Assembly (NCBI RefSeq): GCF_002159665.1
Contig: NZ_NFJC01000014.1
Span: 1 to 64,000, forward strand
Source: Desulfovibrio sp. An276
GTDB taxonomy: Bacteria; Desulfobacterota; Desulfovibrionia; Desulfovibrionales; Desulfovibrionaceae
Length of the DNA stretch: 64,000 bases
Reading direction: 5' to 3'
This document shows, in pieces, positions 41,994 to 63,551 of this stretch; positions within the stretch are counted from its first letter, which is position 1, and each line of letters begins with the position of its first letter. Position numbers and translations under genes: made by a program. The notes below the pieces were generated by a model. It was not told where the DNA came from. It did not search any database and saw only the letters and a list, made by a program, of their open reading frames with translations.

Positions 41994-42131
41994 GGAATTT
42001 TCCCAAAGACGTGACTTTGCGGGAAAAATGACTGTGAATACAGGAAAAGACATGGAAAAGAGGCCCGAATCTGTGCCGAAATGGAACAGTTTCGGGCCTC
42101 TTTCTTCCTTTGGAGCCTTTGGCTGGAAATT

Positions 42132-44186: not shown

Positions 44187-44402
44187 GAGACTGTTCCCTA
44201 AATAATGCTTGTCCGAAAGCCCAGTGCCTGCCAATTGGACTTTCTGCTGCCCTAAATACCTTCTGATTGTGCTGGCCCAGCAGGCAAGGGGCAAAAGAGT
44301 GTGTCAAAAAAGAACAACAAGGGGCTAGTTCCCGAAGATTCCTTAGCATTATAATACAAAACTGGCACCAATATGCAAGCCAAAATCACAGGAAAGAGGG
44401 GG

Positions 44403-44506: not shown

Positions 44507-44522
44507 TGGCATCGATATTGCA
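44507..44522 (+). promoter_or_regulatory. Sigma-54 (-24/-12) promoter of the acetoin operon
   Basis: TGGCATCGATATTGCA, with GG and GC 10 bases apart and the typical TTGCA end. A start around 44533 gives a leader of about 75 bases. Confidence 0.75.
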
Positions 44523-44607
44523 AATGTTAAAGGGCAGATACAGGCACCATGTTTTGTGCATGGATTTCGAGTTTCACAAGGCAACGTCCCAGGGAGGTTT
44601 TGAGTAT

Positions 44608-47370: not shown

Positions 47371-48342
47371 ATGGCTCGCAAGACATACCTGCAGGCATTG
47401 AACGACGCCATGCGTCAGGAAATGGAGCGTGATCCCAATGTCTTCATCCTCGGTGAAGACGTAGGCAAATTTGGCGGCTGCTTTGGCGTTACCCAGGGGC
47501 TTTATGATCAGTTTGGCGAAAGGCGCGTGCGTGACACCCCCATCAGCGAAAGCGCCATCATGGGCGCTGCAGCGGGTGCTGCCGCGGCAGGCTTGAGGCC
47601 CATTGCCGAACTCATGTTCGTGGACTTCATCGGCGTCGCCATGGACCAGCTGTTCAACCAGGCGGCCAAGATGCGTTTCATGTTCGGCGGCAAGGCCAAG
47701 GTGCCCATGGTGCTGCGCATGCCCCAGGGCGCTGGCGTGGGCGCCGCGGCCCAGCACTCCCAGTGCCTTGAGGCCTGGTTCATGCATATTCCCGGCATCA
47801 AGGTCTGCATCCCCGCGACTCCGGCAGACGCGAAGGGCCTTTTGGTGAGTGCCATCCGCGACGACAACCCCGTGGTCTTCCTTGAGCACAAGCTCCTCTA
47901 CGGCATCGAGGGCGAGGTGGACGATGATCTCTACGAGATCCCCATTGGCAAGGGCAAGGTTGTGCGCGAGGGCAGCGACGTGACCATCGTGGCAACGGCC
48001 CTCATGGTGCACAGGGCCCTTGAGGCAGCGGAAATCCTCGCCAAGGACGGCATCAGCGTGGAAGTCGTGGATCCGCGCTCCCTGGTGCCCCTGGACAAGG
48101 ACTGCATCCTCGACTCCGTGCGCAAGACCCACGCCCTGGTTGTCGTGCACGAGGCAGTGAAGAACGCCGGTGCGGGCGCCGAAATCGCAGCCATGGTGGC
48201 AGAGGAAGCCATCGAGTACCTGGACGCACCCATTGTGCGCATAGGCGCCCCCTTCTGTCCTGTTCCCTTCAGCCCCACGCTTGAGCAGGCCTACATGCCC
48301 TCGGTGGAAAAGATCGTGCAGGCTGTGCGCGAGCAGCGCTAG
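47371..48342 (+). CDS. acoB: Acetoin dehydrogenase E1 beta subunit
   Basis: 323 residues. Transketolase pyrimidine-binding domain (LGEDVGKFGG, RVRDTPISESAIMG, FVDFIGVAMDQ) and C-terminal domain (EVVDPRSLVPLD). Pairs with E1 alpha. GGAGAATTCT lies before the ATG. A long hairpin follows the stop. Confidence 0.92.
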   Translation: MARKTYLQALNDAMRQEMERDPNVFILGEDVGKFGGCFGVTQGLYDQFGERRVRDTPISESAIMGAAAGAAAAGLRPIAELMFVDFIGVAMDQLFNQAAKMRFMFGGKAKVPMVLRMPQGAGVGAAAQHSQCLEAWFMHIPGIKVCIPATPADAKGLLVSAIRDDNPVVFLEHKLLYGIEGEVDDDLYEIPIGKGKVVREGSDVTIVATALMVHRALEAAEILAKDGISVEVVDPRSLVPLDKDCILDSVRKTHALVVVHEAVKNAGAGAEIAAMVAEEAIEYLDAPIVRIGAPFCPVPFSPTLEQAYMPSVEKIVQAVREQR

Positions 48343-48457: not shown

Positions 48458-49447
48458 ATGAAAGTTGGACTTATCGCCAATCCGGCTTCGGGAAAGGACA
48501 TCAGACGCATAGTCGCCCACGGCAGCGTCTTCGACAACCAGGAAAAGGTCCGCATGGTGCGCCGCATTCTGGCAGGCCTGAAGGAAGCAGGCATTGAGGA
48601 AGTGCTCTACATGCCGGATTCCTACGCCATCGTGGAAAGGGCCCTGACAGACTTGCCCGAAGCCCGGCGCCCGGCAAGCATTGCCCCCCTGGTCTACTGG
48701 CAGCACAACAATCAGGAAGACACTGTGAACGCTGCAAGGATGCTCGAAGAGGCTGGAGCAGGCCTCATGATCGTCCTTGGCGGGGACGGGACAGCCAGGG
48801 CAGCCTGCAAGGGCAGCCGCAAGCTCCCCATCCTGGCGCTTTCCACAGGGACCAACAATGTCTTTCCGGTCATGACCGAAGCCACCATGGCCGGCCTTGC
48901 GGCAGGTGTTCTCGCAAGCGGCGCCATCCCCATGGAGGCCGGCTGCCTTGAGGCGGACATCCTGGAAATCGTTGTGAACGGAGAGTGCGTGGACATGGCC
49001 CTGGTGGACGTGGCTGTCGCGCGCGAGGCCTTTGTGGCTTCAAGGGCTGTCTGGGATGCGGGAAGGCTGACTGCTCTCTTCCTTGCCCGCTGCAAGGCGG
49101 ACAGCATAGGACTTTCGGCCATTGGCGGCCAGCTTTGCCACTGTCCTCCCTCGTCCGGCACAGGCCTGGCTCTTCAACTGGACAGCAGCTCCGAGCGCAA
49201 GGTGCGCGCTGCCATTGCCCCGGGTCTTTTTGTGGAGGCGGGCATAGTCTCGCAGCAAACCATGACCAGGGGAACAAGCTTTCCCGTGCAACAGCCTGCT
49301 GTCCTCGCCCTGGACGGCGAGCGCGAAGTTGTCCTGCGCAAGAAGGACGAGGCCTATGTACGCCTGGCCCAGCGCGGCGTGCAGGTGGTGGATGTGGCAA
49401 GAACCCTTGAGGAGGCCAGGAGAAAGCGCGTCTTTGTGCGCGGCTGA
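48458..49447 (+). CDS. acoX: AcoX, NAD-kinase-like acetoin catabolism protein
   Basis: 329 residues. ATP-NAD kinase fold: NPASGKD (8-14), GGDGT (108-112) and STGTNN (129-134). AcoX accompanies acetoin dehydrogenase genes in many bacteria, but its reaction is not established and it is not always required. It follows the long hairpin. Confidence 0.88.
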   Translation: MKVGLIANPASGKDIRRIVAHGSVFDNQEKVRMVRRILAGLKEAGIEEVLYMPDSYAIVERALTDLPEARRPASIAPLVYWQHNNQEDTVNAARMLEEAGAGLMIVLGGDGTARAACKGSRKLPILALSTGTNNVFPVMTEATMAGLAAGVLASGAIPMEAGCLEADILEIVVNGECVDMALVDVAVAREAFVASRAVWDAGRLTALFLARCKADSIGLSAIGGQLCHCPPSSGTGLALQLDSSSERKVRAAIAPGLFVEAGIVSQQTMTRGTSFPVQQPAVLALDGEREVVLRKKDEAYVRLAQRGVQVVDVARTLEEARRKRVFVRG

Positions 49448-49879: not shown

Positions 49880-50659
49880 ATGAAAATTCAGGGAAAGGTA
49901 GCACTGGTGACCGGTTCTGCACAAGGAATAGGCAGGGGCATTGCCCTGCGTTTGGCCGAGGACGGCGCGGACATCTGCCTTGTGGACCAGAAGGCAGACA
50001 AGCTGTCCAGGGTGGCCGCCGAGATTGAGGCCCGCGGTCGCAAGGCTACGACCGTTGTCGCGGACGTGACCGATCGCGCGCAGGTCTTTGCTGCCGTTGA
50101 CCACGCGGAAAAGACTCTGGGTGGCTTCGACATCATGGTCAACAACGCAGGCATAGCCCAGGTGGAAGCCCTGTGTGATGTGACAAAGGAGCAGCTCGAC
50201 CGCATCTTCGCCATCAATGTCTACGGCGTGCTCTGGGGCATTCAGGCAGCAGCTGCCAAGTTCAAGGCTCGCAACCAGCGCGGCAAGATCATCAACGCCT
50301 CTTCCATAGCCGGTCACGACTCCTACGCCATGATCGGCGTCTATTCCGCAACCAAGTTCGCGGTGCGTGCCCTGACCCAGGCAGCGGCCAAGGAGCTGGC
50401 CTCTGCCGGCATCAATGTCAACGCCTACTGCCCGGGCGTTGTGGGCACGGACATGTGGCTTGAGATCGATGCAGGCTTTGCAAAGATCACGGGCGCAGCT
50501 CCCGGTGCAACCTACAAGCAGTACTGCGAGGGCATAGCCCTTGGCAGGGCCGAGACTCCGGAAGACGTGGCCTGCCTTGTCTCCTATCTCGCAAGCCCGG
50601 ATTCCGACTACATGACAGGACAGGCCGTGCTCATCGACGGCGGCATGGTCTACCGCTAG
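49880..50659 (+). CDS. SDR acetoin/diacetyl reductase (meso-butanediol dehydrogenase type)
   Basis: 259 residues. NAD site TGSAQGIGRG, NNAG, catalytic Ser in ASSIAG, YxxxK in YSATKFAV, and the C-terminal DGGMVY. Best fits the BudC/acetoin reductase family, interconverting diacetyl, acetoin and butanediol. GGAGG precedes the ATG. Confidence 0.88.
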   Translation: MKIQGKVALVTGSAQGIGRGIALRLAEDGADICLVDQKADKLSRVAAEIEARGRKATTVVADVTDRAQVFAAVDHAEKTLGGFDIMVNNAGIAQVEALCDVTKEQLDRIFAINVYGVLWGIQAAAAKFKARNQRGKIINASSIAGHDSYAMIGVYSATKFAVRALTQAAAKELASAGINVNAYCPGVVGTDMWLEIDAGFAKITGAAPGATYKQYCEGIALGRAETPEDVACLVSYLASPDSDYMTGQAVLIDGGMVYR

Positions 50660-50791: not shown

Positions 50792-52066
50792 GTGAGTACA
50801 GAACTGACCATGCCCAAGCTGGGTCTGACCATGAAGACCGGCAAGGTGGCGCGCTGGCTTGTGGCCGAGGGTGCAAGCGTCCATCAGGGCGACGAGATTT
50901 TTGAAGTCGAGACGGACAAGATCACCAACAAGATAGAATGTCCCGCAGACGGCGTGCTTTTGCAGATCCTTGTCCCCCAGGGCGAGGTTGTGGAAGTGGG
51001 CACGGTCCTTGGCCTGCTCGGCGAGGCTGGCGAGGCCGTGGCGACAAAGCCTGCCACTGCAGCCCCCGAGGCTCAAGCGGAAGCTGCCCCTGATGCGGCA
51101 GCGCCTGCAGCCCAGGCCCCTGTCAAGGCAGCCGGCTCCTACATCCTGGCTACCCCCAGGGCCAAGGCTCTTGCCCGCTTCCTTGAGATGGACCTTTGCT
51201 TTGTCACGCCTACGGGAAGGAATGGCCGCATCCGTGAAGCAGACGTTCTGGCCCGCCAGGACGTGCTTTCCAGGATTGCCATCACCCCCCTGGCCCGGGT
51301 GCTCGCTTCCCAGGCAGGCCTTGACATCTGCACCCTGACAGGGACTGGCGAGGGCGGAAAGATCGTGAAGGCGGACGTCGAGCGCGCGCTGAATCCCGAG
51401 GCTGCTGCAGCTGCCGAGGCCGCCCAGCCCGAAGCCGCAGCGGAAGAGAGCGTTCGTGCCATGGTTCTCGAAGAGGGCGGTGGAAGCTTTGCCCGCGAAC
51501 TTTCCGCAACCCTGGACATGACAGCCTGTCTGGCACTTTTGGCAGATCTCAAGCGCCTTGGCGCCTTGTACAAGAAGAGGGCCGATGTTCTTGGCATAGA
51601 CATCGTTGTGGCCCTGGCCGTGGCGCGGACCCTTGCCAACCATCCCGCTCTGAACGCTGTCTACGCAAACGGGGAGCTCAAGACCTCGAAGAAGGTCGAT
51701 CTTCTGCTGCGCGCAGGCGCTGCAGATACGGGCTTTGTTCTCGGCAATGCGGCAGCCCTTGGCATCCTGGCCCTTGCGGATGCGAAGAAGGCCCAAAGTC
51801 AGGGCTCGTCGACCTGCGCCTTCACATCCTTTGCTGCAACACGGATCGAGCGCGCAACGCCTTCACTTGTGGCCGGACAGGCAGCTGGCCTCACACTGGG
51901 CTCAGTGCACGATGCCGTGTGCGTTCTTGAAGGAGCGCCGGTTGTGCGCAAGTGCGCGGAGCTTGTCCTTTCCTACGACGCACGTCTCGTGAGCGAGGAG
52001 GCTGCCTGCGCCTTCATGGACGAGCTTGTGAGCGCCGCAGAAAGCCCCCTGCAGCTCGTTTTTTAG
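50792..52066 (+). CDS. Catalytically degenerate E2-like protein with two subunit-binding domains
   Basis: 424 residues from a GTG with GGGAGAA upstream. Lipoyl domain 1-80 with the usual lysine (ETDKIT, K43); two E3-binding-type domains, about 118-155 (ATPRAKALARFLEMD) and 163-200 (ITPLARVLASQAGLD); then an acyltransferase-like domain. Where E2 enzymes have HxxxDG, this one reads YDARLVSEEA: histidine to alanine, and the aspartate-glycine is gone. It should therefore be unable to transfer acyl groups, but could carry lipoyl groups and bind two E3 or E1 molecules, like the E3-binding protein of eukaryotic pyruvate dehydrogenase. It directly precedes the E3 gene. Confidence 0.85.
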   Translation: MSTELTMPKLGLTMKTGKVARWLVAEGASVHQGDEIFEVETDKITNKIECPADGVLLQILVPQGEVVEVGTVLGLLGEAGEAVATKPATAAPEAQAEAAPDAAAPAAQAPVKAAGSYILATPRAKALARFLEMDLCFVTPTGRNGRIREADVLARQDVLSRIAITPLARVLASQAGLDICTLTGTGEGGKIVKADVERALNPEAAAAAEAAQPEAAAEESVRAMVLEEGGGSFARELSATLDMTACLALLADLKRLGALYKKRADVLGIDIVVALAVARTLANHPALNAVYANGELKTSKKVDLLLRAGAADTGFVLGNAAALGILALADAKKAQSQGSSTCAFTSFAATRIERATPSLVAGQAAGLTLGSVHDAVCVLEGAPVVRKCAELVLSYDARLVSEEAACAFMDELVSAAESPLQLVF

Positions 52067-52178
52067 GGAATATTTCGCAACCATTTGCAGTTACCTGACA
52101 TGTCCAGGCAAATCTGCCGGCCGGACACGCCCAAACAACCCCCAGGCGTCGGCCTTTCAGATGAGGAGATAGGGATCA

Positions 52179-53542
52179 TGTATGATGTCATAGTTCTTGG
52201 TGGTGGACCCGGAGGGTACGCGGCTGCCATTCGTGCGGCCCAGTTGAAGGGAAAGGTCGTCCTGGTGGAAGAGGCTGCCATGGGCGGAACCTGTGTGTTG
52301 CGCGGCTGCATTCCGAGCAAGATATGGCTCAGGGCCGCATCGTTGCTTGAGCAGGCGAAGAAGGCCGGTGATTTCGGGCTGAACCTGGAAATCGGCAGCT
52401 TTGACTGCAAGGCAGTGGTCGCCCGCAAGGAAGGTGTTTCCAACGAAATCGCCATGGGCATGTCCGCACTTTTAGCCAACAACGCCATCGAGGTGGTGAT
52501 GGGCAGGGGCGTGGTAGAGTCCGCCCACAGGGTAGTGGTGAACGGCAAGGTCCTCGAGGGCAAAAACATCATCATCGCTACCGGAAGCCGCCTTGCGCCC
52601 TGCACTGTGCCTGGCGCGGAAGCCCTTGTCATGACCTCGGACGAGCTCCTTGGAGCCACAGAGCTTCCAAAGTCCGTCCTTGTGACCGATCCTGGCCCCA
52701 TAGGCGTGGAATGCGCCATGCTCCTCGGCATGCTTGGCTGCGAGGTCACGTACGCCCTGCCAGGGGCGCGCATCCTGCCCGAAGAGGATCAGGACAGCGC
52801 CCAGCGCCTGGCAGCAGCCTTGCGCGAGCGCGGCGTGAAGATCATGGCCCGCTGCAAGCTTGAGCGCGTGGAAAACGGGGAATGCGTGCTTTGCGGCAAG
52901 AAGAAGGAAGAGCGCGTCACAGTCGAGAAGGTGCTCTGGTCCTTGCGCGAGCCCGTCTCCACGGGCTTCGGCCTTGAGGATCTGGGCGTTTCCCTCAACG
53001 AGGATGGCGGCATACAGGTTGACGCGCACTGCCGGACCAATGTTTCCGGCATCTACGCCATAGGCGACTGCACTGGCGGCTGGATGCTCAGCCACGTGGC
53101 CTCGGCCATGGCCATCTGCGCTGCCGAAAACGCCATGGGCACGCCTTCGACCTACAAGTCGGAGCTTGTTTCCCGCGCCATCTGGGGCATTGTGCAGATG
53201 GGCAGCGTGGGCCTTTCCGAAGAGCAGGCCGAACGTCAGGGCCGCGAGGTGGAAGTGGGCTCCTTCCCCTATGCCATCAACGGCTACGCCATGCTGCGCG
53301 GCGAGGTGGACGGAGCCGTCAAGGTCGTGGCGGACGCAAAGACCGGCGAAATCCTCGGCGTGCACATTGTGGGCAGTCAGGCCTCGGAGCTTGTGGGCGA
53401 GGCTGTCCTTGCCATGCAGCTCGAGTGCACAGTGCATGAGTTCGCCAAGGGCTTCAGAGTCCATCCTGCCTTCTGCGAGACCGTGGTGGACGCCTTCCGC
53501 GACGCGGAAAGCTGGGCCTTGTATCTGCCAAGACGCGGCTAG
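52179..53542 (+). CDS. acoL: Dihydrolipoyl dehydrogenase-like protein (E3)
   Basis: 454 residues. FAD site VLGGGPGGYAAA, redox disulfide GGTCVLRGC (C39, C44), ATGSRL, second FAD motif GIYAIGDCTGG, and the C-terminal HPAFCE with the catalytic His/Glu spacing kept. The NAD domain is unusual: the loop GGGxIG is DPGPIG (171-176), and the acidic residue that normally binds the NAD ribose at the end of the next strand is replaced (YALPGA). It may bind NAD poorly or pass electrons elsewhere. Start at MYDVIVLG. Confidence 0.85.
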
Positions 53543-53639: not shown

Positions 53640-55181
53640 ATGACTGCCCAGGGACACGAACCACGAGCGAGCCAGGCTCGGACAGACGCATATCCTCTCC
53701 AGATTCTGGAGCTCGGGCGCATCTCCTACGCCAATGCCTGGCAGTTTCAGAAGCTGCGCCACGACTCTGTGCTGGAAGGCATTGTGCCGGATACGCTTTT
53801 GCTTCTTGAGCACGATCCCGTGATCACCATGGGCCGTGGGGGCTTGCCCGAACACATCTATGTGACCGGGGAAATCCTGGCAAAAAAGGGCATAGAGCTC
53901 TTCTGGGTTGAACGCGGCGGCATGGCCACCTACCACGGGCCTGGCCAGCTTGTGGCCTATCCCATACTGCATCTGCGCGACAGGGATCTGCACGCCTACA
54001 TGGAGCGCCTTTTGGACGTGCTCGAAGCAACGGTAGAGCATTTTGGCGTCAAGGCAGAACGCTCCGTGCACGGGCCTGGTCTTTGGGTGAACGGGGCAAA
54101 GGTGGCAAGCATTGGCATGGCTGTGCGCAAGTGGGTGAGCTACCATGGTATTGCCCTCAACGTCTCTCTCGACCTTTCCCCCTTTTCCCTCATCTCTCCT
54201 TGCGGAAATCCCACCGAGCGCATGACCTCACTGGAAAGGGAATGCGGCAAAAAGATTGATCTTTCTGACGTGCAGAAGGTCTTTGTGGACAATTTTTTGC
54301 GCGTCTTTGGCTATTACCAAAAGCCCGATGTGGGCGAGGGACACCCGTCCTGGCTTGTGCGGCACCTGCCTTCCGAGAAGGAGGTGCGCCCTGTGGAGCA
54401 TCTTGTGAGCGGTCTTGGCCTGCACACGGTTTGCCAGGAGGCACATTGCCCGAACAGGCACGAATGCTTTGCCAGGGGAACCTCCACCTTTTTGGTTATG
54501 GGCGACATCTGCACTCGCGCCTGTCGCTACTGCGCAGTGACAAAGGGGCACCCAAAGCCCCTGGATCCCGAGGAGCCCTCAAGGGTGGCCGAGGCTGTGG
54601 CGCGCCTTGGGCTCTCCACAGCAGTCATTACCTCGGTGACCAGGGACGATGTGCCGGACGGCGGCGCCGGGCACTTTGCGGCCATTGTGCGGGCCATACG
54701 GGAAAAGTCCCCCCAAACGCACATCGAGCTTCTGGTTCCGGATTTTCAGGGCAAGCAGGAGAGCATAGAGCGCGTGTGTGCAGCAAGCCCCGACATGTTC
54801 AACCACAATATAGAGGCAGTGCGCAGGATCTTCGCGCAAGTGCGCCCGCGTGCGGACTACGACCTCTCGCTTCGTGTCCTGCAAAAGGCAGCGAGCCTTG
54901 GCCTGCGCGTCAAATCGGGCCTCATGCTTGGCCTTGGCGAGACCTGGGAGGAGATAGCAGGAACCCTGCGCGACCTCTACGATCACGGCTGCCGCTATCT
55001 GACTCTTGGGCAGTACCTTGCTCCCTCAAGCCACCATGTGCCCATGCGCCGCTACCTTGCTCCGGACGAATTCGTTCACTGGAAAAATGTGGCCATGGAC
55101 ATGGGCTTTTTGGACGTTGCTTCCGGTCCCCTTGTGCGCAGCTCCTACAGGGCCTCGGCTATGCTTGAAAGGGCCCTGTGA
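53640..55181 (+). CDS. lipB-lipA: LipB-LipA fusion: octanoyltransferase and lipoyl synthase
   Basis: 513 residues in one frame. Residues 15-225 are LipB: RGGMATYHGPGQLVAYPI, lysine 154 in NGAKVASIGM, catalytic C188 in SPCG. Residues 240-513 are LipA: auxiliary cluster C265-x4-C270-x5-C276, radical SAM cluster CTRACRYC (C291, C295, C298), and C-terminal RSSYRA. The enzyme moves octanoate from carrier protein to the lipoyl domain and inserts two sulfurs in place. AAGGAG precedes the ATG. There is no stop or frameshift between the halves. Its place at the end of the acetoin operon recalls acoS of Pelobacter. Confidence 0.92.
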   Translation: MTAQGHEPRASQARTDAYPLQILELGRISYANAWQFQKLRHDSVLEGIVPDTLLLLEHDPVITMGRGGLPEHIYVTGEILAKKGIELFWVERGGMATYHGPGQLVAYPILHLRDRDLHAYMERLLDVLEATVEHFGVKAERSVHGPGLWVNGAKVASIGMAVRKWVSYHGIALNVSLDLSPFSLISPCGNPTERMTSLERECGKKIDLSDVQKVFVDNFLRVFGYYQKPDVGEGHPSWLVRHLPSEKEVRPVEHLVSGLGLHTVCQEAHCPNRHECFARGTSTFLVMGDICTRACRYCAVTKGHPKPLDPEEPSRVAEAVARLGLSTAVITSVTRDDVPDGGAGHFAAIVRAIREKSPQTHIELLVPDFQGKQESIERVCAASPDMFNHNIEAVRRIFAQVRPRADYDLSLRVLQKAASLGLRVKSGLMLGLGETWEEIAGTLRDLYDHGCRYLTLGQYLAPSSHHVPMRRYLAPDEFVHWKNVAMDMGFLDVASGPLVRSSYRASAMLERAL

Positions 55182-55272: not shown

Positions 55273-56949
55273 ATGAGAAAGCAGAGAAATCCCGTCTTCG
55301 GCAAGGCCACTGTGACAGCCATGACCGCCCTTTGTCTGGTCGTTCTGTTTTTTTCCTGCACGGCTTATGCAGGAACGTCCTGGATTATGGACGATGCGGG
55401 CTTTGCAAAATCCGCGCATGCGGATCTTGGCTGCGCCTCCTGTCACGAGGACATAGACCCTGCCGAACACCCTGCCATGGACGGGGTGTTCAAGGAGCAA
55501 AGCTCGGCCTACAGGCTTGAAGCCTGTCTTTCCTGTCATCCGGACGTGGAAGAGGAAAAGGCCGAGGGATTGCACGCCGGAAAGCCCATCCCCAAGGGTG
55601 CGGATATGGCAAATTGCGTTTCCTGCCACAATCCCCACCTTGTGGGCAGCACAAAGGCCGACAGGGAAGCAGCAGAGCTTTCCGAAGAGAGCAGGGCCTG
55701 TCTTTCCTGCCACGCAAAAAGCGCTGTGGAAGAAAAGACAAGACCTGTCCTGTGTATTTCGTGCCATGACACAGGAAGCATTGCCACCCACAAGAGCGTT
55801 TCCTGTCTCTCCTGCCACGTGGGAGCAGCCGCCTACCCGCACAGCATGGAAAAGGTAAACTGCCTCTCCTGCCATGTGCGCCACACGGAAAGCGAGATAC
55901 ACGATGCCCACACAAGGGTCGAGTGCGCGAGCTGCCACTCGGCAGGTGTGAGCCCTGTGGCTTCCAGGGGTGTTGTGGGCTTTGCCGTCACCGATTCCGA
56001 GCTTGTGCACAAGTTTGATCTGCCCGCGGGAACAGCGTCCTGCGCCCGCTGCCACACAGAGGCAGTCCCGGCAGGCGGAAAGACCATAGCCGCGGACAGC
56101 ATCCTGCCACCGAAGGGTGCCCTGTGTGCTGCCTGCCACGCAGCCACCCTGACTTTGCCCGACACCCCCTCGCGGATTGGTTTTGGCGTCCTTGTCGCGG
56201 GCTTTGCGGGTCTTCTGATCCTCTGGTGCTCTTCTGCGGGCCTTGGCGGTAGGCGCTCGCAAAGTACTGAGGCTGCTTCCATCCACGCGCCCGCGGGACA
56301 CGCAGGGCACGGGCCCAGAGGCGCAAGGCTTTTTGCCTCTGTCCTTTGTGACATCTTCCTGCAGGCCAGGCTCTGGCGCGAGTCGAAGGTTCGCTGGCTC
56401 ATCCATGCCCTCATCTTCTTCCCCTTTGTCATACGCGCATGCCTTGGTCTTGCCGCAAGCCTGGGAGCCTGGCTTGCTCCCAAGTCCGCCTGGCCCTGGG
56501 ATCTTCTTGCCAAGGATTGGCCTGCCACAGCCCTTGTGAACGATGTGTGCGGCGTGCTGCTTCTCGTTGGCCTTGCCCTTGCCATTGCACGGCACTGTCT
56601 TGAAAAGCCCGCGCATTCCGGCATCGCCAACATGCCGAAGAGTGACCTTTTTGTGCTCATCCTGCTCTTCGTGCTCACTGTAAGCGGCTTTGTCCTGGAA
56701 GGAGCACGCATTGCCCTCGACACCCTGGCCCTGGGTGCCACGGACACAGGCCTTGCCTTTGCAGGAGCGATTTTCGCAGAGCTCTTCCTGCCCCTTGGCG
56801 CGGACGGCATAGCCGGGATCTACGGAACCCTCTGGTACATCCACGCCATTGCCACTGCAGCGACAGTCGCCTGCATACCCTTTACCCGCCTGCGCCACAT
56901 CTTCACTGCTCCCCTGGTTATCATCGTCCAGGCCCTGCGCAGACACTAG
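55273..56949 (+). CDS. Decahaem cytochrome c fused to a cytochrome b-type membrane domain
   Basis: 558 residues. Signal peptide 1-33 (to TAYA), then a periplasmic domain with ten CxxCH haem sites in about 270 residues. A membrane part follows with about five helices: one after the last haem (VLVAGFAGLLIL), then a NarI/DsrM/HdrE-like group with histidines in WLIHAL, IARH and WYIHAI placed to hold b haems. It should exchange electrons between the quinone pool and periplasmic or cytosolic partners. The start at MRKQRNPVFG gives a proper signal; an ATG 12 codons earlier has a better but distant AGGGAGG. Confidence 0.85.
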   Translation: MRKQRNPVFGKATVTAMTALCLVVLFFSCTAYAGTSWIMDDAGFAKSAHADLGCASCHEDIDPAEHPAMDGVFKEQSSAYRLEACLSCHPDVEEEKAEGLHAGKPIPKGADMANCVSCHNPHLVGSTKADREAAELSEESRACLSCHAKSAVEEKTRPVLCISCHDTGSIATHKSVSCLSCHVGAAAYPHSMEKVNCLSCHVRHTESEIHDAHTRVECASCHSAGVSPVASRGVVGFAVTDSELVHKFDLPAGTASCARCHTEAVPAGGKTIAADSILPPKGALCAACHAATLTLPDTPSRIGFGVLVAGFAGLLILWCSSAGLGGRRSQSTEAASIHAPAGHAGHGPRGARLFASVLCDIFLQARLWRESKVRWLIHALIFFPFVIRACLGLAASLGAWLAPKSAWPWDLLAKDWPATALVNDVCGVLLLVGLALAIARHCLEKPAHSGIANMPKSDLFVLILLFVLTVSGFVLEGARIALDTLALGATDTGLAFAGAIFAELFLPLGADGIAGIYGTLWYIHAIATAATVACIPFTRLRHIFTAPLVIIVQALRRH

Positions 56950-57025
56950 GTTCACTTTTCCGGCAGGCCGTCTGGTCCTGCCGGACCCCTGACCCACAAT
57001 CATAATCTCAAGGAGAGATAGTGCC

Positions 57026-57451
57026 ATGGAAATCCTCGGCTACAACATGCCCGAAGACCTGTATTACGACGAACACCACTTCTGGTTCCGCAAGGAAGGC
57101 GACGAACTTGTGGTTGGCATGAACGATTTTGCCATCAAGCTGGCAGGTCAGATCGTCTTTGTACAGCTGCCCTACGAGGGCAAGGCCGTGAGTGCCGGCA
57201 AGAAGTTTGCCAAGGTCGAGTCCGGCAAATGGCTCGGCACAGTGTACAGCCCTGTTGACGGCGAGATAAGCGCTGTCAACGAGGACCTGGAAGAGGATCC
57301 CGAACTCATCAACAGGGACTGCTACGGTCAGGGTTGGATGTACCGCATAAAGGCCGACGACATGTCGCCCCTGGAGGGCCTCAAGCACGGCGGCCGCGAG
57401 GTGCTGGAACCCTGGCTGCAGGAGGACATAGCCAAGTTTGCAAAGGATTAG
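57026..57451 (+). CDS. GcvH-like lipoyl carrier protein
   Basis: 141 residues, H-protein size and fold. The lipoylation site is KVESGKWLG (lysine about residue 68) within the hairpin, followed by VYSPVDGEI and GWMYRI as in GcvH. No glycine cleavage genes P or T lie in the window. Its neighbours (decahaem/b cytochrome, HdrD-like protein, own ligase and synthase genes) point to a redox carrier such as LbpA of sulfur-metabolising bacteria. AAGGAG precedes the ATG; only 3 bases separate it from the next gene. Confidence 0.85.
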   Translation: MEILGYNMPEDLYYDEHHFWFRKEGDELVVGMNDFAIKLAGQIVFVQLPYEGKAVSAGKKFAKVESGKWLGTVYSPVDGEISAVNEDLEEDPELINRDCYGQGWMYRIKADDMSPLEGLKHGGREVLEPWLQEDIAKFAKD

Positions 57452-57454
57452 CCT

Positions 57455-58690
57455 ATGCGTGCATCAGCCTTCAGTTTCTCTCAGCGTCTGGCCCTGGATG
57501 CCTGCACGCACTGCGGCCAGTGCCTGAACGTCTGTCCCGCAGTGGCCGCGGCAGGGGACGCCGAACTCTCCGCCCAGGTACGCCTGGCCCGCCTGAAGGG
57601 CCTTTTGCGGGATCGCAACGCCTTTTTCCAGAATCTCATGGAGTCCTTCGGCATTGTGCCCGGGCACAATACCCCCTCGCTCCAGGAGTACGGAACGTCG
57701 GTCTTTCGCTGCTCGCTTTGCGGAGACTGCCAGGAAATCTGCCCCCTGGGCCTGCCCCTGAAGGATCTGTGGCTTGATGTCCGCAGGGAACTGGCCGCCA
57801 GCGGTCATGCCCCGGCAAAGACGAAGGCCATCAGGGCCAACCTCGAGGGCAGTCACAATGTCTTTGACGAGGACAACGACGAGCGGGCGGACTGGATCGA
57901 CAACATGAGAAAGGCCCCGCGCAACCTTGTGCGCAAGAAGGCGGACATCGTCTACTTCACGGGTTGCGTGGGCGCCTACTTCCCCCTGGCCCAGAAGATC
58001 CCCATGGCGTTAGTGCAGATCCTGACAAGCGCAAAGGCGGACTTTACCATCATGGGCGCAGACGAGTGGTGCTGCGGCTTTCCCCTGCTTGGTTCTGGCC
58101 AGCCCGATGCCCTTGCCTCCATCATTGCCCACAACGTGGCCGAAGTGAAGCGCCGCGAAGCCTCGAAGGTCGTCTTCACCTGCCCCTCCTGCCTGCAGAT
58201 CTGGAAGGAGGTCTATCCTCGCTACGCGGATCTCGAAGGCATTGAGCTTGTGCATGCAAGCGAGCTTGTGGCAGGCCTTGTTCGCGACAGAGCCGTAGAG
58301 TTTGCGGCAAAGTCCCCGGACGCGGAAGAGCTTGTCGTAACCTACCATGACCCCTGCGATCTGGGTCGGGGAAGCCGTGTCTTCGAGGAGCCCAGGGAAA
58401 TACTGCGCGCTCTGCCCAATGTCAGGCTTGTGGAAATGGCCCATCACGGCAGGCACAGCCTCTGCTGCGGCGGTGGCGGCAACCTCGAGATGATCGATCC
58501 TGCCCTTTCCACTGCCATGGCAAGGCGCAAGGTCGAGGAGGCACAGGCCACCGGAGCCTCGACCATCGTGACTACCTGCCAGCAGTGCGTGCGCACCATG
58601 ACAACCTACGTGCGCCGCAACAAGCTTTCCCTGGAAGTTCTTGATCTCACACAGCTTGTGGCAAAATGCCTGGCAAAGGCCACAGGCTAG
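57455..58690 (+). CDS. HdrD/DsrK-like Fe-S disulfide reductase subunit
   Basis: 411 residues. Two [4Fe-4S] sites, CTHCGQCLNVCP (17-28) and CSLCGDCQEICP (about 86-97), and two CCG domains: WCCGFP with CPSC, and LCCGGGGN with CQQC. CCG domains hold the special cluster that splits disulfides in heterodisulfide reductase. No membrane segment. The likely partner is the decahaem/cytochrome b protein, the likely substrate the lipoyl disulfide of the carrier encoded directly before it. Confidence 0.88.
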   Translation: MRASAFSFSQRLALDACTHCGQCLNVCPAVAAAGDAELSAQVRLARLKGLLRDRNAFFQNLMESFGIVPGHNTPSLQEYGTSVFRCSLCGDCQEICPLGLPLKDLWLDVRRELAASGHAPAKTKAIRANLEGSHNVFDEDNDERADWIDNMRKAPRNLVRKKADIVYFTGCVGAYFPLAQKIPMALVQILTSAKADFTIMGADEWCCGFPLLGSGQPDALASIIAHNVAEVKRREASKVVFTCPSCLQIWKEVYPRYADLEGIELVHASELVAGLVRDRAVEFAAKSPDAEELVVTYHDPCDLGRGSRVFEEPREILRALPNVRLVEMAHHGRHSLCCGGGGNLEMIDPALSTAMARRKVEEAQATGASTIVTTCQQCVRTMTTYVRRNKLSLEVLDLTQLVAKCLAKATG

Positions 58691-58758
58691 GTTCTGCGCT
58701 CCCGGGCAAGGCCTTTGACCCTTGCCCGGGAGCCTTGTGCACGATTTTGGAGGCTCAC

Positions 58759-60342
58759 ATGAGGACAAGATGGCGCCTTTTGGACCTGCCGCCCATGAGC
58801 GCGGCCGAAAACATGGCCCTGGACGAGGTGCTTGTCGAGCTGCGAGGCAGGGGACATGGCACCAATACCCTGCGCTTTTTGCGCTTTCGCCCGGCAACGG
58901 TCCTTTTGGGCTTTCATCAGTCCGTGCAGGAGGAAGTGCGGGAAAGCTACTGTGCATCCCACGGCATAGACATAAACAGGCGCATCACTGGCGGGGGCGG
59001 GCTTCTTTTCGACGAGAGCCAGCTTGGCTGGGAAATCATCTGCGACAAGGCCTTTTTCGGCGTGACAGTGCCCAATACGGAGCTTTTCAAGGTCTTGTGC
59101 AAGCCCACCATAGCTGCCCTGAAAACCCTTGGCGTTGAGGCAAACTTTCGCCCTCGCAACGACATCGAGGTGAACGGCAGAAAGATCTCCGGCACTGGCG
59201 GCACGGATTCGGACGCGGCCTTCCTCTTCCAGGGGACACTGCTCATGGACTTTGACGTGGAGACCATGCTCAAATGCCTGCGCATTCCCGTGGAAAAGCT
59301 CAAGGACAAGGAAATAGCCTCGGTGCGCCAGCGCGTGACCTGTCTTGCCTGGGAGCTTGGAGCCCCTCCGGATTGCGAAAGGGTGAAGGCAGCCCTTGTG
59401 GAGGCCTTTGCCGAGGCTTTGGACGCGGACTTTGTGGCACAGGGTTTGACTGCAGAGGAAGAGGACCTTCTGGCAAAGAAGCTTCCCTACTTCCAGTCCA
59501 GGGAATGGATCGACATGGTGCGGCCAGCCCGCTCGCGCACAGAGGTTGTGCAGGCAGCAAAAAAGTCTCCCTACGGCCTTGTGCGCGTCACCCTGCAGGT
59601 AGACATGGTGCGCAATGTCGTAAAGGACATCTTCATCACAGGCGACTTTCTCTCCTTCCCCGGCCGTGCGCTCTACGATCTCGAAAGTGTCCTGCGCGGC
59701 AAGAAGCTTGTGCGCGAAGAGCTTGTGCGCCTTGTGGACAATTTTTTTGCCGAAGGAAACATCTGCATTCCGGACATGGGGCCAGGGGATATTGCCACCC
59801 CCCTGACCATGGCCCTTGCCAAGGTGGACATAGCAAGAGCAGGCATTCCCTTAGAGTTGTGCAATCGCATAAACACTACCTGCGCCTCCTTTGCCGAGGT
59901 GCTCGACCTTGGCATAGACGCCCTGCTTTTGCCCTATTGCGCGAAGGACCCTTCCTGCGATTTGCGCCACGAGGACTATTGTGTGGCTTGCGGCAAGTGT
60001 TCGGTGGGAGATGCCTGGAGCCTTGGAAATTCCCGAAATCTGCAGATGGTGTGCATCACCAATTTCGAGCATTTGCACGAAGAGCTTGTGCGCCTGAAGG
60101 CCCGCGGCTGCAGGGCCTTTGTGGGCTGCTGCTGCCAGCAGTTCTTTGTGAAGCACGCGGAGGATTTTGCTGCCATTGGTCTTCCGGGCATCCTGGTGGA
60201 TATCGAGGACACCACCTGCTACGAGCTTGGCGAGGAAAACGCTGCCTACAAGGGGCGCTTTGCCAGACAGACCAGCGTGAACATGGAGCTTTTGTCCGCC
60301 ATATTCGAAGCCGCGGACAGGGCAGGGGGAGGAAGATCATGA
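58759..60342 (+). CDS. Lipoate-protein ligase fused to DUF116
   Basis: 527 residues. Residues 1-250: LplA/LipM-type ligase (NMALDE, RRITGGGGLLFDE, NDIEVNGRKISGTGG with the adenylate-binding K142). About 270-350: ligase C-terminal accessory domain. About 360-527: DUF116, with cysteine groups CAKDPSC, CVACGKC and CCCQQ that could hold Fe-S clusters. GGAGG precedes the ATG. Linked through a 4-base overlap to the flavoprotein gene. It should attach octanoate or lipoate to the GcvH-like carrier; the DUF116 part may deliver electrons or sulfur (inference). Confidence 0.85.
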   Translation: MRTRWRLLDLPPMSAAENMALDEVLVELRGRGHGTNTLRFLRFRPATVLLGFHQSVQEEVRESYCASHGIDINRRITGGGGLLFDESQLGWEIICDKAFFGVTVPNTELFKVLCKPTIAALKTLGVEANFRPRNDIEVNGRKISGTGGTDSDAAFLFQGTLLMDFDVETMLKCLRIPVEKLKDKEIASVRQRVTCLAWELGAPPDCERVKAALVEAFAEALDADFVAQGLTAEEEDLLAKKLPYFQSREWIDMVRPARSRTEVVQAAKKSPYGLVRVTLQVDMVRNVVKDIFITGDFLSFPGRALYDLESVLRGKKLVREELVRLVDNFFAEGNICIPDMGPGDIATPLTMALAKVDIARAGIPLELCNRINTTCASFAEVLDLGIDALLLPYCAKDPSCDLRHEDYCVACGKCSVGDAWSLGNSRNLQMVCITNFEHLHEELVRLKARGCRAFVGCCCQQFFVKHAEDFAAIGLPGILVDIEDTTCYELGEENAAYKGRFARQTSVNMELLSAIFEAADRAGGGRS

Positions 60343-61415
60343 AAAAGGCAAGACGCTGCAGTATCCTTGTCTGCGGAGCCGGCCCTGCCGGCTCCTCGGC
60401 AGCCCTTGCCGCAGCCAGGGCTGGAGCCGGAGTCCTTGTGCTGGAAAGGCGGCGCCTTGTGGGTGTGCCGGTGCGCTGTGCGGAGTACATCCCGGCCCCC
60501 CTTGCCGGAAGCGTGCCCGGAGGAAAGGGCTACATTGTCCAGAAGACCACATCCATGCGTGCCTTTTTGCATGGCGAGTGCATCCAGAACATTGCTGCTC
60601 CGGGCTGCGTCATCCGTCGTGATCTCTTTGATCAGGCTCTTGCCAGGGCTGCTCAGGAAGCAGGTGCCCGTGTTTTGACAGGGCAAAACCTCCTTGGCCT
60701 TGAGGACGCGGAAGGCGGAAGAATCCTTGTGCACGCCGAGGCCGCGGACGGCACGAAATGGGACATTCTAGCAGACATTGTCATAGGCGCGGACGGTCCG
60801 AAGTCCAGGGTTGGCGCCCATGTGAACGGTACAAACTGGCAGATGATTCCGGCCCTGCAGGTGACACTGCCTCTTGTCACACCCCTGGATCACACGCGCG
60901 TCTACTTCGACGAGAGGCTTTGTGCAGGCTACGCCTGGCTCTTTCCCAAGGGCGATGTCGCAAACGTGGGTCTTGGTGCTGTCCCGAACGCCGACAGAGG
61001 TACGCTTGCGAAGGATCTCAAGGCCTTTGTGGAAGCCATGATCAGGGAGGAACTTGTCACAAAGGGCGGGCGCCCTACCTGTACGGGCGGTTGGATTCCC
61101 GTTCAGGAGCGCCCATGCGTGCGGGGAAACATCCTTTTGGCAGGGGACGCTGCCGGGCACACGCATCCCATTACCGGGGCAGGCATAGCCCAGGCAGTGC
61201 AGGCAGGGGAAATGGCTGGCCGCTGGGCAGCCAGGGCTCTTGGAGAAGGCAATATGGGGCTTGTGAACAGCTACGCAGAGGAGTGGCAAGACTACTATGG
61301 CGCTGTCCTCTCCCACGCGCGCAAGCGCCGCCTTGCCTGGGAAGCCCACAGGGGCTCCCTTGATGGTGCCATCCGTTCCTTCTGGATCGGCTACAGGGAA
61401 TACTATGCGGCCTGA
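60339..61415 (+). CDS. Geranylgeranyl-reductase-family flavoprotein (LipT-like)
   Basis: 358 residues. FAD motifs CGAGPAGSSAA, DIVIGADGPKSRVG and LLAGDAAGHTHPITGAG. The family includes lipid reductases, but the place between the ligase and two radical SAM genes matches the flavoprotein LipT that accompanies LipS1/LipS2 lipoyl synthases, where it may provide electrons. Start overlaps the previous stop; GGAGG upstream. The stop lies inside the next gene (11 bases overlap). Confidence 0.8.
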   Translation: MKKARRCSILVCGAGPAGSSAALAAARAGAGVLVLERRRLVGVPVRCAEYIPAPLAGSVPGGKGYIVQKTTSMRAFLHGECIQNIAAPGCVIRRDLFDQALARAAQEAGARVLTGQNLLGLEDAEGGRILVHAEAADGTKWDILADIVIGADGPKSRVGAHVNGTNWQMIPALQVTLPLVTPLDHTRVYFDERLCAGYAWLFPKGDVANVGLGAVPNADRGTLAKDLKAFVEAMIREELVTKGGRPTCTGGWIPVQERPCVRGNILLAGDAAGHTHPITGAGIAQAVQAGEMAGRWAARALGEGNMGLVNSYAEEWQDYYGAVLSHARKRRLAWEAHRGSLDGAIRSFWIGYREYYAA

Positions 61416-62448
61416 GCTTTCTTCGGATGTGTGCGCTATCCCGGACGGGCTTCTCGACCCCTGCCTGCGCCTTTCAAAAGAAGAGAGAGCGCGTCTGGCA
61501 GGCTTGCGGGAAGCCTCGTGGCAGCGCCACGGAAAGGTTCTTTCCTGCTATCTCCCAGGCATGTATGTGCGCGACGGGGTACGGGGAAAGTATCCGGCAC
61601 TTTCGCTCACGGGAACACGCTGCGACCAGCACTGCGCCCACTGTGAGGGAAAGCTTCTGCTCTCCATGCCGGATGTCTCAACGCCGGAGCGTCTTTGGAA
61701 GCAGTGCCAGGCCCAAGCCTCCCGGGGAGCATTGGGCATCCTCCTGAGCGGAGGGTGCGACGGCCTTGGGCGGCTTCCCTGGGAAGAATTCCTGCCTGTT
61801 ATTGCCCGCGTGCGAGAAGAGCTTGATCTCCATGTGAGCGTGCACTCGGGCCTAATCACAAAAGAAATTGCCAGGGGTCTTGCCTGCGCCGGTGTCGAGC
61901 AGGTGCTCCTTGACGTTATTGGCTCCCCCGCGACCTACAGGGAAGTGTACGGCCTTGAGAACGGGCCCATGGCTCTTTATGAAAGCCTTGAGGTCATAAT
62001 CCAGGCTGGGTTGTCCCTTGTGCCGCACATCGTGGCAGGCCTTCATTTCGGGTGCCTTGTGGGCGAGTACGAGGCCCTGAGGATTGTAAAGGGCTTTATG
62101 CCGGAAGTTTTGGTAGTTGTCGTGCTCATGAATCTCAAGGGCACGCGCATGGCTCATGTCACTCCTCCGGGAGCGGGGGAGCTCAAGGACTTTTTTGCAA
62201 GGGCGCGGGAAGAGCTGCCAGACACAATATTAAGCCTTGGCTGCGCGAGATCCAGGCGAGATTCGACATCCCTGGAGCAGCTTGCTCTTTTGGCAGGCTT
62301 CAATCGCATGGCCCTTCCTTCGGACGAGACTCTGGAACTTGCGCGGGCAATGGGCGTGCGCTGTTCCTTTCAGGCAACATGCTGTTCTGTTGCGCCTACC
62401 TTGCGTGGGGGCTGGCAGCGCGAGCCCTTTTCGCCATTTGAGAGGTGA
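61405..62448 (+). CDS. Radical SAM protein, LipS1/LipS2-type lipoyl synthase candidate
   Basis: 347 residues. Radical SAM cluster CDQHCAHC (CX3CX2C) preceded by YPALSLTGTR; GGCDGLG, and several C-terminal cysteines (LGCARS, FQATCCS). Lipoyl synthase activity of such radical SAM pairs was shown for Thermococcus kodakarensis. Which of the two is the first-acting enzyme cannot be read from the sequence. Overlaps the flavoprotein gene and is followed after 2 bases by the second radical SAM gene. Confidence 0.8.
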   Translation: MRPELSSDVCAIPDGLLDPCLRLSKEERARLAGLREASWQRHGKVLSCYLPGMYVRDGVRGKYPALSLTGTRCDQHCAHCEGKLLLSMPDVSTPERLWKQCQAQASRGALGILLSGGCDGLGRLPWEEFLPVIARVREELDLHVSVHSGLITKEIARGLACAGVEQVLLDVIGSPATYREVYGLENGPMALYESLEVIIQAGLSLVPHIVAGLHFGCLVGEYEALRIVKGFMPEVLVVVVLMNLKGTRMAHVTPPGAGELKDFFARAREELPDTILSLGCARSRRDSTSLEQLALLAGFNRMALPSDETLELARAMGVRCSFQATCCSVAPTLRGGWQREPFSPFER

Positions 62449-62450
62449 GT

Positions 62451-63551
62451 ATGACTAGTTTGCCCCCTGTTTCGGAAACTGCCCGCAAGGGTCTGGAGAA
62501 GACCGCAAAATTGAACGATGCGGAAAGCCCTTCTGCAGTGCGCATGAGCCTTGCGGCAGCCATGACCCTGGATTTCGCTCCCGGGCGTTTCTACCGTGAC
62601 GCCTGTCTCTACTGCATCAATCTGCTCTTGTCCTACAAGTCTGGCTGTGCAGGACGCTGCGCCTACTGCGGACTCTCCCCAAAGCGCGAGAGCGGAAAGA
62701 GCTTTATCCGTGTCAGCTGGCCAGCCTGCGCTCTGGAAGACGTCGTTTCCGCCATTGCGGAAAAAAGGCAAAGGGTAAAGCGCGTGTGTATCTCCATGCT
62801 CACCAACAGGCGCGCCCTGGCGGACACAGTGGCTATCACCCGCGCTGTGCGCGAGGCAGTGGACGTCCCTGTTTCGGTACTGGTTGCCCCTACCATTGTG
62901 GGCGTCAAAGACCTTCTGGCCTTCAGGGACGCTGGCGTGGACAAGATAGGTGTCGCCATCGATCTGGCTACGGAGGAGCTTTTCGACCGCTATCGCGGAA
63001 GCGGGGTGCGCGGCCCGCACAAGTGGCAGCGCTACTGGGACTGCCTTGGCGAAAGCCTGGAAATCTTCGGGCAGGGCATGGCAGGATCCCACTTCATGGT
63101 AGGCATGGGGGAGACTGAGCAGGAAATGGCAGGCGCCATGCAGCGCGTGCGCGACATGGGCGGCTTCACGCATCTTTTTTCCTTCTTTCCGGAAAGCGGT
63201 TCCCTTCTGGCTGAAAGACCTGCTCCGCCCCTGGATCAGTATCGCCGCATACAGCTTGCGCGCTGGATCATAGACAACGATTTGGGCAGGGCAGAAGCCT
63301 TCAAGTATTCGGCAAAAGGAAAGATCCTGGGATACGGAATTTCCGACGATGTGGTGAACGCCTGCCTTGAGAGTGGCGAGGCCTTCCGCACCAGCGGCTG
63401 CACTGGCCGCGACGGCGAAGTGGCCTGCAATAGGCCCTACGCCAACTGGCGGCCTGGGCCCGGCATTCGCAACTATCCCTTCGCTCCCAACGAGACGGAT
63501 AGGCGGCATATCAGGCTGCAGCTTGGCCTTGAGAAGTTCGCACGCACATGA
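62451..63551 (+). CDS. Radical SAM protein, biotin-synthase-like LipS1/LipS2 partner
   Basis: 366 residues from the ATG at 62451 (a GTG six bases earlier is possible). Cluster CAGRCAYC preceded by YCINLLLSYKSG, with further cysteines at FYRDACLYC and in the C-terminal TSGCTGRDGEVAC. The general plan is that of biotin synthase/LipS proteins: TIM barrel plus auxiliary cluster ligands. Last gene of the run; a strong terminator follows. Confidence 0.8.
   Translation: MTSLPPVSETARKGLEKTAKLNDAESPSAVRMSLAAAMTLDFAPGRFYRDACLYCINLLLSYKSGCAGRCAYCGLSPKRESGKSFIRVSWPACALEDVVSAIAEKRQRVKRVCISMLTNRRALADTVAITRAVREAVDVPVSVLVAPTIVGVKDLLAFRDAGVDKIGVAIDLATEELFDRYRGSGVRGPHKWQRYWDCLGESLEIFGQGMAGSHFMVGMGETEQEMAGAMQRVRDMGGFTHLFSFFPESGSLLAERPAPPLDQYRRIQLARWIIDNDLGRAEAFKYSAKGKILGYGISDDVVNACLESGEAFRTSGCTGRDGEVACNRPYANWRPGPGIRNYPFAPNETDRRHIRLQLGLEKFART

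Follow-up and report, generated by a model that had tools for sequence, protein, structure and literature searches.

A seven-gene module at positions 55,273–63,551 of a 64,000-nucleotide stretch of DNA from Desulfovibrio sp. An276 (contig NZ_NFJC01000014.1, positions 1 to 64,000; the whole stretch is called the window below) encodes a membrane cytochrome (Cyt), a GcvH-like lipoyl carrier (GcvHl), an HdrD-like protein with CCG sites (HdrDl) and proteins for lipoate assembly (Table 1). The module is real, conserved and widely spread, and the HdrD-linked carriers with the motif GKW are, judging from their sequences, a family of their own. HdrDl and Cyt may oxidize dihydrolipoyl-GcvHl that has been reduced by a cytoplasmic dehydrogenase system, with acetoin dehydrogenase as the donor in this genome; we give this reading an even chance of being correct. 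The positions of the seven genes, their common forward strand and their families, as given in the initial annotation of the window, were reproduced by profile searches and a motif count. The genes from Cyt to LipS2 are separated by gaps of at most 76 bases or overlap slightly. The gene dsrA is present in the genome, which fits a sulfate or sulfite reducer, as the host had been taken to be.

Conservation of the HdrDl–GcvHl gene pair

A scan with an alignment of HdrDl yielded 79 loci, the best of 150 candidates, among which the 44 closest were treated apart from the other 35. GcvHl is encoded within 2.5 kb of HdrDl in 42 of the 44 closest loci, in 41 of these within 300 bp; the two exceptions are L065, with GcvHl farther upstream in the same gene run, and L087, where none was found. 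Cyt is located within 6 kb of HdrDl in 40 of the 44 loci, and a lipoate-assembly gene is present in 33, many loci ending at contig edges. The gene order, which the initial annotation had proposed to look for in relatives, is thus conserved.

Match coordinates were compared across 395 sampled genomes of the phylum. GcvHl lies no more than 700 bp away at 30 of the 36 best HdrDl places; the six misses comprise one pair about 2 kb apart, one genome without a GcvHl match and four pairs split over contigs. From the GcvHl side, an HdrD-type gene was found within 1.5 kb in 25 of 29 new stored loci, which are best matches taken one per genome (one of these HdrD-type genes is only an edge fragment), and the GKW motif is present in all 29. 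Within the order, an HdrDl orthologue (E ≤ 1e-70) was detected in 13 of 247 genomes.

The lipoyl carrier GcvHl

Genes gcvT, gcvH, gcvPA and gcvPB, each scoring above its NCBIfam cut-off, are located together on contig C45 of the same genome, and therefore glycine cleavage has its own H protein. The carrier GcvHl exceeds the cut-offs of the gcvH profiles TIGR00527 (117.8 bits; cut-off 115.85) and NF002270 (134.9 bits; cut-off 117), so these two profiles do not separate it from GcvH; the genuine GcvH of the genome scores more (167.4 bits on TIGR00527). GcvHl is below the cut-offs of the GcvH-related profiles NF045810 (56.2 of 150 bits) and TIGR03077 (50.6 of 144). No gcvT or gcvP match of at least 80 bits was found within 10 kb of HdrDl in any of the 79 loci, many of which are shorter than 10 kb.

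In an alignment of 96 rows, from which exact duplicates and four fragments shorter than 95 amino acids (L019, L020, L024, L071) were left out, GKW is present at the lipoyl lysine in 69 of 70 HdrD-linked carriers. The reading ESGKW[L/V]G is found in 63 of these 70 rows, and the lone row without GKW is EAGKYIG (L124). All 22 GcvH rows linked to gcvT/P, representing 21 genes since GcvH of this genome was entered twice (L001, L048), contain ESVKA; GKW is absent from the four rows of unclear context. All of the best 120 of 7092 matches to GcvHl in a protein collection carry ESGKW.

A tree of 78 rows placed 52 HdrD-linked rows on one side of a branch with support 100/98, the support of the gcvT/P group being 88/79. 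The 52 rows belong to at least four phyla, Thermodesulfobacteriota, Bacillota, Chloroflexota and Actinomycetota, and some of them come from records labelled Myxococcota or Pseudomonadota (titles 'Deltaproteobacteria' or 'Proteobacteria'). For a second tree, GcvH of Thermus and of E. coli were added, and six rows with long branches, a further HdrD-linked row and one duplicate were taken out; here a branch with support 100/100 separated 47 HdrD-linked rows of 72. A quick tree built without the motif columns retained the HdrD-linked branch (98 by the Shimodaira–Hasegawa-like approximate likelihood-ratio test); the gcvT/P rows no longer formed one group. In the two supported trees GcvHl is therefore outside the gcvT/P-linked GcvH, LbpA not being among the rows. 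Gene context, motif and tree rule out GcvHl as a canonical GcvH.

LbpA has two conserved cysteines, near the N- and C-terminus, with the exception of some archaea (PMC6067878). GcvHl of the window contains a single cysteine, C99 of 141 amino acids, and a cysteine within the first 20 residues was found in two of the 70 HdrD-linked rows. No shdr gene set was seen in the cluster, where there is one HdrD-like gene only; the genome elsewhere was not searched for shdr. LbpA is ruled out by the absence of the two cysteines and by the gene context within the cluster, the two features compared. A plasmid search with LipS2, made as a route to LbpA, returned 115 records, with query coverage below 80% in every case, and 17 of the 20 matches listed are annotated as MSMEG_0568-type radical SAM proteins.

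By the features tested, the carrier is distinct from both GcvH and LbpA, and the idea of a dedicated lipoyl carrier linked with an HdrD-like protein and a membrane cytochrome held up. The initial annotation had named a carrier grouping inside GcvH, gcvP/gcvT lacking their own H protein and a gene order lost in relatives as outcomes that would speak against it; the opposite was found.

Other GcvH-like and CCG proteins were also noted. In the same genus, loci L006, L007, L010 and L031 encode a further GcvH-like protein adjoining dihydrolipoyl dehydrogenase (and a ligase in L031), with the motif ES[VLM]K[AS]V, its own tree branch and no gcvT/P in the 1.5-kb flanks. Paired GcvH-like stretches are located in another family of the order (G026, contig C3, 81275-82630; G031, contig C21, 38406-39723), in open frames of 313-336 amino acids, possibly GcvH domains fused to something else. 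Directly 3' of the glycine-cleavage genes on contig C45 (L048, 8920-11079) lies a gene for a protein with LUD, Fer4 and two CCG domains, of the L-lactate oxidation type.

HdrDl and Cyt

HdrDl retains the eight Fer4 cysteines and contains two complete CCG cysteine sets (C171/206/207/243/246 and C301/337/338/375/378), as in the disulfide reductases HdrB/HdrD. Across the fetched loci, 84 of the 89 other HdrD-like proteins, both types included, contain all 18 cysteines; in the five exceptions the protein end or the last cysteines are absent. A structure model of HdrDl (predicted local distance difference test, pLDDT, 89.9; predicted template modelling score, pTM, 0.88) matched EtfD of Mycobacterium smegmatis (9ojn) first among solved structures (E 9e-22; TM 0.81 by query), followed by a LutA-LutB model in second place and HdrB structures from rank 3. 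EtfD is also the best sequence match of HdrDl in PDB. In the printed alignment the first CCG site of EtfD reads CT where HdrDl has CC, and for this reason HdrDl looks fitter for disulfide chemistry. For DsrK, TmcB and HmcF, HdrDl scores far below the NCBIfam cut-offs (91/400, 80.7/735 and 52.1/750 bits). A model of GcvHl and HdrDl fused in one chain had a pTM of 0.80 over 554 residues, which speaks weakly in favour of a preferred placement of GcvHl on HdrDl; pTM for an unplaced carrier is about 0.7 by rough estimate, and the short linker may bias the fused model.

Besides ten CXXCH motifs and a NarI-like membrane domain, Cyt has a hydrophobic N-terminus, and its c-haem domain is probably periplasmic. 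Histidines 378, 524 and 542 are conserved in 38/38, 39/39 and 39/39 rows with a residue at the position (39 rows including the window), which is consistent with the binding of at least one b haem. Among solved structures, Cyt had no more than two matches, both weak and of c-type. As to the link with the quinone pool proposed in the initial annotation, the NarI-like domain and the EtfD-like fold fit it, and from these two features we infer the quinone coupling itself.

Lipoate assembly

A lipoate set of the LipS1/LipS2 type is located beside the carrier, as had been noted earlier; NF053742 and NF053743 are the best matches of the two radical SAM proteins over the entire profile, but their cut-offs were not reached. 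Close relatives of GcvHl (E ≤ 1e-34) and LipS1 (E ≤ 1e-30), searched in the same 395 genomes, were each found in 57. They co-occur in 49 genomes with 8.2 expected, a count that ignores relatedness, and by genus they are found together in 27 (of 30 and 31) with 3.8 expected. LipB serves every known lipoate pathway except sHdr (PMC10332631), and two adjacent lipoate systems fit this published role: LipB-LipA would serve E2, and LipS1/S2 would serve GcvHl. The fusion of the ligase to DUF116 is a separate observation. Matches cover both parts in Desulfovibrio relatives; DUF116 is a cysteine-bearing domain, for which delivery of Fe-S or sulfur to LipS1/S2 is a guess.

The acetoin/2,3-butanediol cluster

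The genes from about position 42,100 onward are read, from their families and order, as one acetoin/2,3-butanediol cluster ended by the seven-gene module. Its gene set is complete, with acetoin dehydrogenase E1 alpha and beta, the dihydrolipoyl acyltransferase E2, the dihydrolipoyl dehydrogenase E3, AcoX, a sigma-54 activator and 2,3-butanediol dehydrogenase. The E1 profiles and matching solved structures are those of pyruvate and branched-chain enzymes, and the profiles do not distinguish acetoin from pyruvate; the gene acoX is typical of acetoin clusters (PMC3543383). The name AcoR for the activator is based on position only, and the name LipT was given from the place beside LipS1/S2.

Table 1. 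Genes of the acetoin/2,3-butanediol cluster and the lipoyl-carrier module in the window
Feature	Position	Strand	Evidence
Sigma-54 activator, AcoR position	42132..44294	-	divergent from aco cluster; best NCBIfam DhaR 366 bits, cut-off 551 not reached
E2a, dihydrolipoyl acyltransferase, full catalytic domain	44518..45840	+	PF00198 255 bits, PF00364, PF02817; core motif NHMVTDG
E1 alpha, 2-oxo acid/acetoin-type dehydrogenase, AcoA-like	46330..47292	+	PF00676 307 bits; TIGR03182 366 bits, below cut-off 393.85
E1 beta, AcoB-like	47371..48342	+	NF006667 408 bits, above cut-off 321
AcoX-like, NAD-kinase fold	48458..49447	+	PF01513 49 bits; named by fold and position
Acetoin reductase/2,3-butanediol dehydrogenase, BudC-like	49880..50659	+	TIGR02415 357 bits, above cut-off
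Second E2 (E2x)	50792..52066	+	lipoyl domain, E3-binding domains, core motif altered; start picked by eye
E3, dihydrolipoyl dehydrogenase	52178..53542	+	TIGR01350 411 bits, above cut-off 408.8; CxxxxC intact
LipB-LipA fusion (octanoyltransferase and lipoyl synthase)	53640..55181	+	TIGR00510 356 bits, TIGR00214 145 bits, both above cut-off
Cyt, decahaem c domain fused to NarI-like b-type membrane domain	55273..56949	+	10 CXXCH; PF02665
GcvHl, lipoyl carrier	57026..57451	+	PF01597 130 bits; predicted lipoyl lysine K68 in ESGKWLG
HdrDl	57455..58690	+	two Fer4 sites and two complete CCG sites
Lipoate-protein ligase with C-terminal domain, fused to DUF116	58759..60342	+	LplA catalytic PF21948; PF10437 (below cut-off); PF01976
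LipT-like FAD oxidoreductase, geranylgeranyl-reductase family	60339..61415	+	TIGR02032 197 bits, above cut-off 158.8
LipS1-like radical SAM protein	61405..62448	+	NF053742 195.5 bits, below cut-off 230
LipS2-like radical SAM protein	62445..63551	+	NF053743 207.5 bits, below cut-off 270

In E2x the core motif DHRxxDG is replaced by DARLVSE. The DAR change is common to the closest relatives (L050/L058, L051/L059, L060), and an intact E2 core motif was found in L047, L052-L055, L063, L064 and L097; E2x may be a scaffold that binds E3 and carries lipoyl. None of the ten genes from E2 to LipS2 is missing from any of the eight long relative loci (L047, L050-L056), so the association of the module with the cluster is beyond chance; the short contig L046 retains all seven genes from Cyt to LipS2. 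AcoX was found in 25 of the 395 genomes, 14 with GcvHl and 11 without; the module is therefore optional for acetoin oxidation.

After the divergent sigma-54 activator, genes of two zinc alcohol dehydrogenases are located on the other strand. A small DUF6506 protein (about 100 amino acids) recurs in the acetoin-type loci L080, L083 and L115, and a member of the same protein cluster was found by blastp in L077. Elsewhere in the window (32404-33978), a Schlafen AlbA_2 protein with a RecG-like C-terminal domain is encoded.

Apparently exchangeable electron input

Among the 44 closest loci, acetoin-type E1 is present in 12 and a GlcD-type FAD dehydrogenase in 13, the two alternating without a single locus containing both. 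Neither was found in 19 loci, of which 14 have less than 5.5 kb upstream and five have AcoX or LipB-LipA visible. A LarA-type racemase is encoded in six of the 44 loci, four of them GlcD loci, and all 13 GlcD loci contain a second HdrD-type gene besides HdrDl. Since the GcvHl–HdrDl pair has acetoin dehydrogenase attached to it here and GlcD-type lactate dehydrogenase in other genomes, it looks like an exchangeable output module. The description of the module as self-contained in the initial annotation is not supported: it shares these dehydrogenase partners, and in the window the same-strand genes and the divergent regulator back to about 42,100 belong to one cluster with it.

In four Bacillota loci (L115, L117, L120, L129), E2 and LipB- or LipA-type genes are joined to HdrDl and a FAD protein with only 23-28% identity to GlcD; E1 is present in two of them, AcoX in three and two GcvHl copies in three. 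Locus L129 belongs to Desulfosporosinus fructosivorans, a cultured organism. In Actinomycetota bins L125, L126 and L133, a gene for a RACo/AcsV-like corrinoid activator comes after GlcD-HdrDl-GcvHl, pointing to a possible connection with corrinoid methyl transfer.

Proposed mechanism and alternatives

In the reading with GcvHl as an electron donor to HdrDl and Cyt, E1 and E2 would make acetyl-CoA and dihydrolipoyl-E2 from acetoin, and E3, or E2/E2x directly, would hand electrons to lipoyl-GcvHl, acting as a soluble two-electron carrier. HdrDl would oxidize dihydrolipoyl-GcvHl at two non-cubane [4Fe-4S] sites, and its [4Fe-4S] clusters would pass electrons to the b haem(s) of Cyt and further to menaquinone and/or the periplasmic decahaem domain. 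The pair would work like EtfD, an Etf:menaquinone oxidoreductase, a lipoyl protein taking over the part of Etf. GcvHl would be lipoylated by ligase-DUF116, LipT and LipS1/S2, and the E2 proteins by LipB-LipA. Electron transfer from lipoamide (about -290 mV) to menaquinone (about -75 mV) is downhill.

Several points weigh against this reading. Its support is computational, coming from sequence, gene context and models. E3 with NAD+ would already regenerate lipoyl-E2, and 11 of the 25 genomes with AcoX, one of them of the same genus, do not have GcvHl. GcvHl is near in only 16 of the 35 more distant HdrD-like loci, and only 30 of 74 GcvHl places adjoin one of the 36 best HdrDl. LipS1/S2 are present in the locus for 7 of 12 E1 loci but 1 of 13 GlcD loci; in most GlcD loci the lipoate set lies elsewhere or is of another kind. 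The c-haem domain of Cyt is shorter or missing in some relatives, and periplasmic transfer is therefore not general. The weakest point is the GlcD loci: with lactate at about -190 mV and lipoamide at about -290 mV, the first transfer runs uphill under standard conditions, so these loci need a very oxidized carrier pool or another role of GcvHl.

Electrons might also flow in reverse, from menaquinol or the periplasmic cytochrome through Cyt and HdrDl to GcvHl, with E3 making NADH. Such transport was proposed for LarG, a GcvH-like protein encoded near a dihydrolipoamide dehydrogenase gene in Pelobacter carbinolicus (PMC3543383), and the location of E3 inside the cluster and the parts themselves are compatible with it. 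The linkage to catabolic donors, acetoin E1/E2 and GlcD, the latter accompanied by a LarA-type racemase in 4 of 13 GlcD loci, suggests electron input, however, and the four Bacillota loci, two of them short, yielded no E3; we consider reverse flow unlikely. A role of GcvHl as an LbpA-like sulfur carrier, with persulfide or sulfane sulfur on dihydrolipoate and HdrDl as a small sHdr analogue, would account for the adjacency of a CCG protein and a GcvH-like protein and for lipoate assembly genes of the same type as in shdr-lbpA clusters (PMC10332631, PMC6067878). This role is quite unlikely, given the single HdrD-like gene, the absence of both LbpA cysteines, the carbon dehydrogenases as recurrent neighbours and the lack of a sulfurtransferase family among the window genes scanned. 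Thus, of the two functions proposed in the initial annotation for the lipoyl disulfide/dithiol, that of an electron carrier is favoured, and that of a sulfur carrier has found no positive support.

Transfer of lipoyl groups from GcvH to E2 has been described (PMC10332631), and the lipoylation genes are clustered here, so that GcvHl could relay lipoyl to E2 in the manner of GcvH and LipL in Bacillus, with HdrDl as an unrelated respiratory complex. A LipB-LipA fusion is already present in the cluster, however, and GcvHl–HdrDl is present in 13 GlcD loci, none of which yielded an E1, although LipL was not searched by name; such a relay appears very unlikely. That GcvHl is a spare H protein of glycine cleavage, placed by chance beside an HdrDl/Cyt pair of Tmc-, Hmc- or DsrMK-type, is hardly credible. 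Its scores above the gcvH cut-offs and the designation glycine cleavage H of those listed relatives that carry a name would agree with this; the 0 of 79 loci with gcvT/P near, the separate branch and motif, the higher score of the genome's true GcvH and the low scores of HdrDl for DsrK, TmcB and HmcF contradict it.

Comparison with known systems

EtfD shares the Fer4 and CCG architecture of HdrDl; it has a NarI-like membrane part and transfers electrons from Etf to menaquinone. The same combination of a Fer4 and CCG module with a NarI-like b cytochrome is present here but split over HdrDl and Cyt, whereas EtfD is a single chain of 1042 amino acids with the altered first CCG site noted above, and its partner is Etf rather than a lipoyl protein. 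No EtfAB was found among the window genes scanned; the rest of the genome was not searched. HdrB and HdrDE have two complete CCG sites as in HdrDl, and HdrB structures match it; their substrate is CoM-S-S-CoB, whereas that of HdrDl is probably a protein-bound lipoyl disulfide.

The sHdr-LbpA system resembles the module in its GcvH-like lipoyl protein, CCG proteins and assembly genes of the ligase-LipT-LipS1-LipS2 type; the module differs in the absence of an sHdr set from the cluster and of the conserved LbpA cysteines, and in the presence of carbon dehydrogenases, a membrane cytochrome and dsrA in the genome. The sLpl(AB)-LipT-LipS1-LipS2 pathway comprises the same four kinds of genes, also contiguous (PMC10332631), but the ligase here is fused to DUF116, and LipS1 and LipS2 are below the NCBIfam cut-offs. 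LarG was proposed as a disulfide electron carrier acting with dihydrolipoamide dehydrogenase, like GcvHl, but its setting is the Act complex with reverse transport, and the comparison is made from the published description (PMC3543383); the term 'heterodisulfide' was not found in the text of that paper. In the Ehe clusters of Culexarchaeia, GcvH was suggested to carry the disulfide partner of HdrB (PMC9723716); this is an archaeal hydrogenase complex, likewise compared by description, not sequence.

Accordingly, the association of a lipoyl protein with an Hdr-type protein is already known (LbpA-sHdr) or proposed (LarG, Culexarchaeia), and the notion is not new. The GKW family, an EtfD-like partner and the coupling to acetoin or lactate dehydrogenases were not found in the listed results of searches of the open-licence PMC literature, and terms looked up in the extracts of PMC5701242, PMC2702500, PMC3949148 and PMC7547702 gave nothing on this gene set.

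We put it somewhat below even odds that the widespread GKW lipoyl family is a further soluble respiratory carrier beside Etf and DsrC, which would deliver electrons from interchangeable dehydrogenases through an EtfD-like CCG protein and a b cytochrome to the membrane and would have its own LipS1/LipS2 lipoylation. The known roles of lipoate are that of a swinging arm bound to enzymes and, from 2018 onward, a part in sulfur oxidation. The proposed role can be tested in cultured hosts, and a short sequence signature is available. sHdr is present in only 42% of the bacteria with LipS1/S2 (PMC10332631), and the proposed role, if true, would offer LipS1/S2 a use in bacteria without sHdr. In that case, many proteins at present annotated as glycine cleavage H would also receive a corrected name, and a protein-borne lipoyl group that carries electrons as a mobile carrier into respiration would give many sulfate reducers and other anaerobes a further branch of energy metabolism.

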